Below are positions 29,455 to 35,514 of a DNA stretch of 43,005 nucleotides, one piece after another. The translations under genes and the position numbers were made by a program. The notes beneath the pieces were generated by a model, which worked only from the letters and a program-made list of their open reading frames with translations, was not told the origin of the DNA and searched no databases. Positions within the stretch are counted from its first letter, which is position 1; each line of letters begins with the position of its first letter. This DNA comes from an uncultured bacterium (lineage in GTDB: Bacteria > Desulfobacterota > Binatia > HRBIN30 > CADEER01). The stretch covers positions 1 through 43,005 of the forward strand of contig CADEER010000002.1 in assembly GCA_902826395.1 (NCBI GenBank), written 5' to 3'.

Positions 29455-32347
<2,893 letters not shown>

Positions 32348-32364: not shown

Positions 32365-33513
32365 TCAGTCCGGCAGCGCCGACATGAGGATCCGCTGCGC
32401 CGCTCCGACGCCTCGGCCAAATTCCAAAGGATGACCGAAATGGCTCAACGCCATCTCGACTGCCGCGATCCCATTAATTGTGTCGAACGCTCCCATGTAT
32501 CCAATGTGAGCGAGACGGAGGATTTTCCCTTTGAGATGATCTTGCCCGCCCGCGAACGCGACTCCCATCCGATCGCGGAGATACGCATGGAGCACCTTGC
32601 CATCCACTCCGTCTGGTACGAAGATCCCCGTCGCCGCGGGGCTCGGATCATCGGGCGCCAAGAGTCGCAAACCCAATGCCTCCGCTCCGGCTCGCGTTGC
32701 CCGAGCACATCGATCGTGGCGGGCATAAACCTGAGCGAAGCCCTCTTCGCGCATCATCGACAACGCCTCATCGAGTCCAAAGACGAGCGAGATCGCCGGC
32801 GTCCAGGCTGTAGTGTTCTTCGTTTGGTTCGCTTGCTCCCGAGCGAGGTCAAAGTAGAAGCGCGGCTGCCGCACGGTCTTCGCTCGGTCCCACGCCCGTT
32901 CGCTGAGAGCGATGAAGGCGAGACCTGGAGGGAGCATCAGCGCTTTTTGAGATCCGGTGACCAAGACGTCAATTCCCCATCGGTCCATCGGAACGTCGTA
33001 GACGCCAACCGCGGTAATTCCGTCGACCACGAGCAGCACATCACGCTGTCGCGTGACCTTGGCAATTGCCTCGACGGGGTGACAGGCGGTGGTCGACGTT
33101 TCACTCGCCTGGACCAGAACACCCCTAACGTCGGGGTGCTCGGCGAGCGCCGCTTCGACTTCCTCAGCGCGAATCCCGCGCCCCCAATCAACGCGAAGCT
33201 CGATTGGAGCTAGACCAAACACCTGGGCCAGTTTGAACCAGCGCTCGCCAAACTTGCCCCCGTTGACCACCAAAACCTTGTCGCCGGGCGAGAAACAATT
33301 GACGATTGCGGATTCCATCGCCCCGGTCCCCGATGCAGATAGGATCAGGACATCGCCCGCTGTGCCAAAGAGCTCGCGTAAGCCCTGACGAGCACGCCCG
33401 AAGATCTCGCTGAACTGTGGAGTGCGATGATGGATGATCGGACGGGCGATCGCGGCGCGTACGCGGGCGGGAACTGGCGTTGGGCCAGGGGCCAAAAGCA
33501 ATTGCTTGATCAC
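32365..33513 (-). CDS. Class V aminotransferase (serine/alanine-glyoxylate type), possible SerC substitute
   Basis: A 382-residue PLP enzyme. I place the start at the GTG at 33513 (GAGG 5 bases upstream); the ATG at 33600 would run through the terminator. The start LLLAPGPTPVPARV is typical of the family. SGTGAMESA and the PLP Lys190 in TGSQKALMLPPGLAF are intact. Relatives act as alanine-glyoxylate or serine-glyoxylate aminotransferases. Members next to serA in organisms without SerC are thought to make phosphoserine. It is the first gene of the aminotransferase-serA-purA operon (17 bases to serA), supporting a serine role. Confidence 0.92.
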   Translation of the reverse strand: MIKQLLLAPGPTPVPARVRAAIARPIIHHRTPQFSEIFGRARQGLRELFGTAGDVLILSASGTGAMESAIVNCFSPGDKVLVVNGGKFGERWFKLAQVFGLAPIELRVDWGRGIRAEEVEAALAEHPDVRGVLVQASETSTTACHPVEAIAKVTRQRDVLLVVDGITAVGVYDVPMDRWGIDVLVTGSQKALMLPPGLAFIALSERAWDRAKTVRQPRFYFDLAREQANQTKNTTAWTPAISLVFGLDEALSMMREEGFAQVYARHDRCARATRAGAEALGLRLLAPDDPSPAATGIFVPDGVDGKVLHAYLRDRMGVAFAGGQDHLKGKILRLAHIGYMGAFDTINGIAAVEMALSHFGHPLEFGRGVGAAQRILMSALPD

Positions 33514-33537
33514 GACTACCTCACGCAAAAAGAGGGC

Positions 33538-33576
33538 AAAAAAAAGCCTGGACCCCTCCGCAACAGAGGCCCAGGC
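33538..33576 (-). terminator. Intrinsic terminator/attenuator 24 bases before the aminotransferase start
   Basis: On the minus strand GCCTGG (33576-33571) pairs with CCAGGC (33551-33546); wobble and GC pairs extend the stem inwards. Eight T follow (33545-33538). It could simply end folE, but only 24 bases separate it from the GTG at 33513, too few for a promoter, so operon transcription must pass through it. Confidence 0.8.
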
Positions 33577-33662
33577 GGACGGCCTTCTGGACGTCAGCAC
33601 TCCCTCGCGGTTCGGTCCGCGTAGCGCCAGTCGTGCAGAGCCTGATTCAATTGTCGACTTTC
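33577..33662 (-). promoter_or_regulatory. Structured leader of the aminotransferase-serA-purA operon
   Basis: Two more hairpins precede the terminator. CGCGG/CCGCG (33621-33617 with 33610-33606) has a 6-base loop. AGGCC (about 33588-33584) can pair with GGCCT inside the 5' arm of the terminator, so it would compete with it, as an antiterminator does. No known riboswitch class is recognised. Confidence 0.4.
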
Positions 33663-33668
33663 GCCCCG

Positions 33669-33695
33669 AGTATCCGAAGCGATCGGGCGTGTCAA
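33669..33695 (-). promoter_or_regulatory. Possible promoter of the aminotransferase operon leader
   Basis: A perfect TTGACA at 33695-33690 is followed by GATACT at 33674-33669. The 15-base spacing is short for sigma-70, so this is tentative. It lies between folE and the attenuator, where a leader promoter is required. Confidence 0.35.
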
Positions 33696-33727: not shown

Positions 33728-34294
33728 TCAGCGACGTAGTCCGTTGTGGACGAGACTCATGAACTCTTCGCGCGTTTCCTGACTGCTGCGGAAGACCCCC
33801 AGTACGGCGCTGCTGACGACGATCGAGTTCTGCTTTTCGACGCCACGCATACGCATGCACAGATGTTCCGCTTCGACGACTACGGCAACACCCGCCGGCA
33901 CAAGCTGCTCCATCATGGTTTGAGCGATCTGCTTAGTGAGTCGTTCTTGTACCTGCAGGCGACGGGCATAGACCTCGACCAGCCTCGCGATCTTGGAAAT
34001 TCCAACGATGCGACCGTCCGGGATGTAAGCCACGTGGGCTTTCCCGAAGAACGGCAGGAGGTGATGCTCACAGAGGGAGAAGAAATCGATGTCCTTCATG
34101 ACGATCATTTCTTCGTAGGCCTCAGTGAAGAGTGCATCCCCGATGATCTTGGCGGGATCCTCGGCATACCCTTTGGTGAGGAAACGCATGGCGCGCGCAA
34201 CGCGGCCCGGCGTCTTGACGAGTCCTTCGCGCTCGGGGTCTTCCCCGAGTTCTCGAAGCATGACCCCGACTGCAGGTTCGATCTTGTCGCTCAT
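33728..34294 (-). CDS. folE: GTP cyclohydrolase I
   Basis: A 188-residue enzyme converting GTP to dihydroneopterin triphosphate, the entry to folate and to 7-deazaguanine (queuosine) synthesis. Zinc ligands are visible in FFSLCEHH and in [11 protein letters not shown]. Other conserved stretches are [13 protein letters not shown] and [21 protein letters not shown]. The length is that of bacterial type IA. No good ribosome-binding site is seen before the ATG. Confidence 0.97.
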
Positions 34295-34425: not shown

Positions 34426-35514
34426 TCAGCGGCTGCGCCGCTCGACCGCCTTCACTTTCTGGTACTTGCGATAGTCGTACCCGGTGGCCATCGCCATGAG
34501 CATCGACTCCATGCCGCCGTCCTTCTCGCGCCGTAGAATCAAGAGCCGCTCATAGAAGTCCTGAACGTCCCTGTTGATCTGTTGTCGCGCGTCACCCGAA
34601 GCCGCAAAAAAGTCATTCAATCGCGCGATGGTAAAACGAAATGCAGAAAAGCGGAGCTCATTCGGAAACGCGTCCCACTCGGCAAGGGAAAGCGTGCGTA
34701 GAGACTCGTATCCAGCAATCAGGGCCTCGAACCGCTTGAGGTCGTACTGCCCCTCCGCAAAACACAAGGCATTGACCGCAGTAGCAAGGTCCAAAATGAA
34801 CTTCCCTCGGCCCGCGATATCGAAATTGAGCAGTGCGACAACTTTGTCGCCTTTCACGAGAAGCCGCGAGGGTCGTACGTCCCCGTGGATCGTTCCCTTT
34901 GGCAGCTTCATCTCGAGGTAATTGCCGAGGTACTCCAACTCCTCATCCAGCGTGCGGACGATCTTCTTCATGTAAGAAGGTAGGCGACCGCGCACCGAAT
35001 CATAAAGCTCTGCGACGCGGTCAAAACTGAAGTGGTTTTCCCCACCCTTCTTGTACGCCTTGGTTACTAGATGAAGGTCAGCAATGACGTGGCCAACATT
35101 CTCCAGCAGGCTTCCAACAACAGAATCAGGATTCAGCTCATGTCCATCGATGCGTCGATAAACCGAGAGAAGACGGCCTGCGAACTCATGGAAATGCCGT
35201 CCACGACGATCCGCCAGTGGCGCTCGACAGGGATACCCATGCTTGCGCAAGAAAAGCACCAAGTCTTGTTCGCGCTTGAGCTCCAACTCACTCTTGCGTT
35301 CGTCGAGGTCGACTACGAACTTGCCGCGCGTAGTCTCGAGGAGAAACTGGAGTTGCTCCGACTCCGGCTCAACATCCAATTGTTTGACCCCAACTACTTT
35401 AGGAAGCCCATACTCGGCCGCAATCGCGTTGGCGTCTTTCTTAATGAACTCTGACTTTGCCACGACTTGTCCGTTCGCGTTGGTTCCGACCCCCGGGAAG
35501 CTGCCCCTTCTCAA
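34426..35514 (-). CDS. APH/homoserine-kinase-II fold protein with degenerate metal site
   Basis: About 362 residues from a TTG at 35514 with GGAG 4 bases upstream; a GTG about 16 codons later is an alternative. The fold is that of ThrB-II and aminoglycoside phosphotransferases: N-lobe strands ([24 protein letters not shown]), then the catalytic loop HGDVRPSR at 210-217 and [10 protein letters not shown] at 228-237. The catalytic Asp212 is kept, but the metal-binding Asn is Arg217, and the Asp of the DxD/IDF motif is Asn230 (an Asp follows at 232). It may have altered chemistry or be a pseudokinase. It lies between queE and folE on the same strand. Confidence 0.75.

Follow-up and report, generated by a model that had tools for sequence, protein, structure and literature searches.

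A ZMP/ZTP riboswitch in the leader of an aminotransferase-serA-purA operon of an uncultured Binatia bacterium

The window analyzed, a 43,005-nucleotide stretch of an uncultured Binatia genome (assembly GCA_902826395.1, contig CADEER010000002.1, positions 1 to 43,005), contained an operon of three genes on the minus strand: a class-V aminotransferase of the SPT/AGXT type (32365-33513; Pfam PF00266), serA, encoding phosphoglycerate dehydrogenase (30749-32347; TIGR01327, 657 bits, cutoff 454), and purA, encoding adenylosuccinate synthase (29455-30747; NF002223, 631.6 bits, cutoff 402). The start codon of the first gene, a GTG at 33513, was supported by relatives, and a GAGG Shine-Dalgarno sequence (33519-33522, minus strand) was found 5 bases 5' of it. 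The upstream neighbor, folE (GTP cyclohydrolase I; 33728-34294; TIGR00063, 257.6 bits, cutoff 181.6), is encoded on the same strand as the operon but is not in the regulated transcript. Just upstream of folE, also on the minus strand, was a gene for an APH/homoserine-kinase-like family kinase (34426-35514), which scored below the thrB_alt cutoff.

The nearest named relatives were Candidatus Binatia and other Deltaproteobacteria MAGs. The best NCBIfam match of the aminotransferase, BhcA, was far under cutoff. A model search of the 6.09 Mb genome found no serC above the curated cutoff, and the sole weak match to the serC model was the class-V aminotransferase of this operon. The gene adjoining serA therefore likely encodes the phosphoserine aminotransferase that these bacteria would otherwise lack.

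The leader of the operon matched the ZMP/ZTP riboswitch aptamer (RF01750, the pfl RNA motif) at 33562-33644 on the minus strand. The match scored 57 bits against the curated covariance model cutoff of 39 that defines membership, covered the model completely (positions 1-86 of 86) and had an E-value of 8.7e-7 when the whole window was compared with Rfam 15; it was the only copy in the genome. The sequence-only reading had stated that the leader matches no known riboswitch class and that its signal may be new. Both statements were wrong: the leader is an ordinary, well-formed ZMP/ZTP (pfl-type) riboswitch, a class already known. The features of that class found here were a P1-J-P2 subdomain and a P3 hairpin with covariation, a pseudoknot joining the P1/P2 junction to the P3 loop, an expression platform overlapping P3, and purine or one-carbon genes downstream (serA and purA here, glyA at seven sister sites). 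The folding energy of the whole leader was not significant versus chance (z = -0.89) and alone would not have revealed it; that the leader is beyond chance follows from the Rfam E-value, the conservation in the class and the covariation.

The P1 helix region, with P2 inside it, spans 33591-33642. According to the Rfam alignment, the P1 core pairs 33636-33633 with 33600-33597 and P2 pairs 33620-33617 with 33610-33607, while pairing in the outer part of P1, about half of the helix, is poor here. The 5' strand of the pseudoknot, GGCG (33625-33628), pairs with CGCC (33577-33574); this pairing was present in 30 of 30 aptamers, with invariant letters in the Binatia. In a second lineage the pseudoknot was GACG:CGTC, so that both sides had changed and the pairing was kept, as read off the sequences without a formal count. 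The motifs ACTGGCG, ACC and CGNNCGCCTGGG of the core were invariant in all 30 copies, including those linked to glyA. P3 and its extension, the antiterminator, occupy 33564-33589. P3 itself pairs AGGCC (33585-33581) with GGCCT (33571-33567), and beyond a one-base bulge it exceeds the Rfam model in length by a CAG:CTG-type segment (33589-33587 with 33566-33564).

Alignment of leaders from related genomes, proposed earlier as a check, showed compensatory changes in P1, P2 and extended P3. Across the 30 aptamers, 88.4% of the helix cells were paired, compared with 36-48% in slid versions, and there were 43 double-change cells versus 19.4 in shuffles. One pair of the P3 extension occurred as CG, AT, TA and TG among 47 distinct leaders, and covaried as CG/AT/TA. 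Extended P3 had 31 double-change cells versus 17.4 in shuffles, a value reached by none of 1,000 shuffles, though kinship among sequences can by itself exceed such shuffles; pairing was 74%, and 37-53% in slid registers.

An intrinsic terminator hairpin of 12 pairs (-22.7 kcal/mol) lies at 33546-33576, with arms at 33576-33565 and 33557-33546 on the minus strand, followed by a U8 tract (33538-33545) that is kept in relatives and ends 24 bases (33537-33514) before the GTG. These positions agree with the earlier description of a terminator with eight T 24 bases before the start. Six terminator-like sites were found in 12 kb, which is not above shuffles (9.8); the stem of this one was by far the longest of the six. 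In 23 leaders, 97.8% of the terminator cells were paired. Changes in the terminator helix alone were one-sided, with none two-sided, because the aptamer fixes its 5' arm. That arm contains the 3' strand of P3, so the AGGCC arm reported earlier as able to pair with the 5' side of the terminator can indeed do so, and is the 5' strand of P3. Since the terminator uses both the P3 3' strand and the pseudoknot, the two structures exclude each other. Minimum free energy folds of the growing transcript, computed without pseudoknot and without ligand, contained P3 in transcripts of at most about 94 bases and the terminator in those of 98 bases or more. The earlier proposal that the leader can adopt either a terminator or an antiterminator fold is thus supported by exclusive folds, conservation and covariation.

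The aptamer was found in 63 of the 148 genomes of the class. Fifty-eight of the 68 aptamer sites were before the same aminotransferase, one before serA and seven before glyA; two were unassigned, one at a contig end and one under the Rfam cutoff. The aminotransferase was usually followed by serA and often by purA, and the full three-gene order was common in the class. Most copies in the class kept the same terminator, and the U tract was retained at 51 of the 58 aminotransferase-linked sites. Twelve more, independent RF01750 matches (57-68 bits) stood upstream of aminotransferase-serA in another set of MAGs, a second group labelled Deltaproteobacteria. Six of the loci at which the aptamer stands directly 5' of glyA (L125, L126, L127, L128, L130, L131) belonged to the same order or class. 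A weak match under cutoff (L129:923-1008 in G020; 37.6 bits) had no recognised target and is perhaps a chance hit or a divergent copy.

Variant aptamers with altered ligands occur in other riboswitch classes, and it is conceivable that in this lineage a ZTP-like aptamer has come to recognize a different ligand. This is very unlikely, since the core was invariant in the 30 copies, glyA-linked ones among them, and the Rfam consensus fits well. Even less credence can be given to a new riboswitch, or an attenuator responding to an amino acid or protein, with a signal yet to be named: the aminotransferase, serA and purA are indeed outside the five commonest ZTP targets, which are purH, fhs, pfl, glyA and folD (PMC2864571), but the RF01750 match, complete with pseudoknot and conserved core, speaks against a new class, and in sister genomes this aptamer also stands before glyA.

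A putative leader promoter was identified upstream of the aptamer. The TTGACA box noted earlier was present on the minus strand (33695-33690) as a putative -35 box, with TTGAC kept in genus and family sisters; a putative -10 box, GATACT (33669-33674), is a weak match that follows a 15-base spacer, and TTCGGATA was kept in the genus. Because a simple sigma-70 promoter scan gave no match in the leader region, this promoter is proposed from conservation only. The separate upstream hairpin of the earlier reading, CGCCCGA with TCGGGGCG, can be drawn; it was rejected as a part of the switch because its arms run across the putative promoter and four sister genomes do not conserve it. It is very unlikely that the hairpin before the operon is a plain folE terminator followed by an independent operon promoter. 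A terminator does follow folE on that gene's strand, but the 24 bases from T tract to start codon contain no -10-like sequence and, as noted earlier, leave no room for a promoter, the terminator-to-start distance is also short in relatives from the order, the conserved aptamer shares sequence with an arm of the hairpin, and copies are also found at sites without folE.

We put the probability that the leader is a transcriptional ZMP/ZTP riboswitch working as an ON-switch at about 0.95. ZTP is a signal of 10-formyl-tetrahydrofolate deficiency (reviewed in PMC7266159). The ZTP riboswitches of Fusobacterium ulcerans and Clostridium beijerinckii (pfl) are transcriptional ON-switches: when ligand is absent, a 3' arm invades the aptamer, P3 and the pseudoknot give way and a terminator forms, whereas ZMP blocks this so that transcription continues (PMC10085676, PMC7484762). 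The paper that first described the motif already noted terminators that overlap its 3' part (PMC2864571), and a recent covariation model covers both aptamer and platform (PMC13273304). Here, transcription would begin near 33660, from the putative promoter between folE and the aptamer; by analogy, without ligand the 3' arm (33557-33546) would displace P3 and the pseudoknot strand, so that the terminator forms and transcription ends ahead of the aminotransferase gene. In a shortage of 10-formyl-tetrahydrofolate, ZMP or ZTP would accumulate, bind and stabilize P3 and the pseudoknot, the terminator would not form, and the aminotransferase, serA and purA would be transcribed. The leader resembles the two characterized switches in being a predicted transcriptional ON-switch with P3 and pseudoknot displaced by a 3' arm, but it differs in host phylum, in target gene and in the covarying segment that extends P3.

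The leader should therefore sense ZMP/ZTP, the alarm for 10-formyl-folate shortage, which answers the question of its signal. It shares with the RF01750 class its aptamer sequence and structure, pseudoknot, overlapping terminator and one-carbon/purine theme, and differs in its operon; what is new is one more member of the class and perhaps also this target. The modest gain is that a single alarm would govern purA together with the synthesis of serine, the usual one-carbon donor. Extra serine might feed the one-carbon pool by way of GlyA, whose gene is also a ZTP target in sister genomes, and flux from IMP to AMP might rise; why purA belongs to the operon is less clear than why the serine genes do. 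No link of ZTP riboswitches to serA, serine or phosphoglycerate dehydrogenase was found in the literature searched, which did not cover Kim et al. 2015.

At eight loci of the second lineage (L051, L057, L069, L077, L079, L080, L084 and L104), the distance from the terminator to the gene was well above 100 bases, and a promoter-like sequence, TTGACT...TTAGCTT, recurred in this interval. In these genomes the riboswitch may supplement a second promoter.

The U tract was missing in family f11 (G041, G021, G034, G047, G027, G054, G104) and in G004. Loci L016, L017, L022 and L028 of this family, together with L021, lacked the U tract but had the same aptamer and operon. The hairpin in G041 and G021 covers AGGTG, a likely Shine-Dalgarno sequence, just before the start codon, which suggests translational control, so that the platform may have moved away from termination. 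This likely change in f11 and the consistent association with serine synthesis are mildly interesting. We consider it an evenly balanced proposal that in the Binatia and the second Deltaproteobacteria MAG group the ZTP alarmone mainly controls de novo serine synthesis (aminotransferase-serA, often purA) as the one-carbon entry, and that f11 swapped the terminator for ribosome-site sequestration at the same operon. If true, the ZTP regulon would have a serine branch, one undescribed in the literature searched.

At one of the f11 sites (L137:1172-1315, in G021), the aminotransferase gene was absent between the riboswitch and serA. A 48-codon frame there (VIKKYRLAPRPTPV...) resembled the first residues of the aminotransferase, with a tblastn match that was not significant, and only distant homologues (34% identity) were left in that genome.
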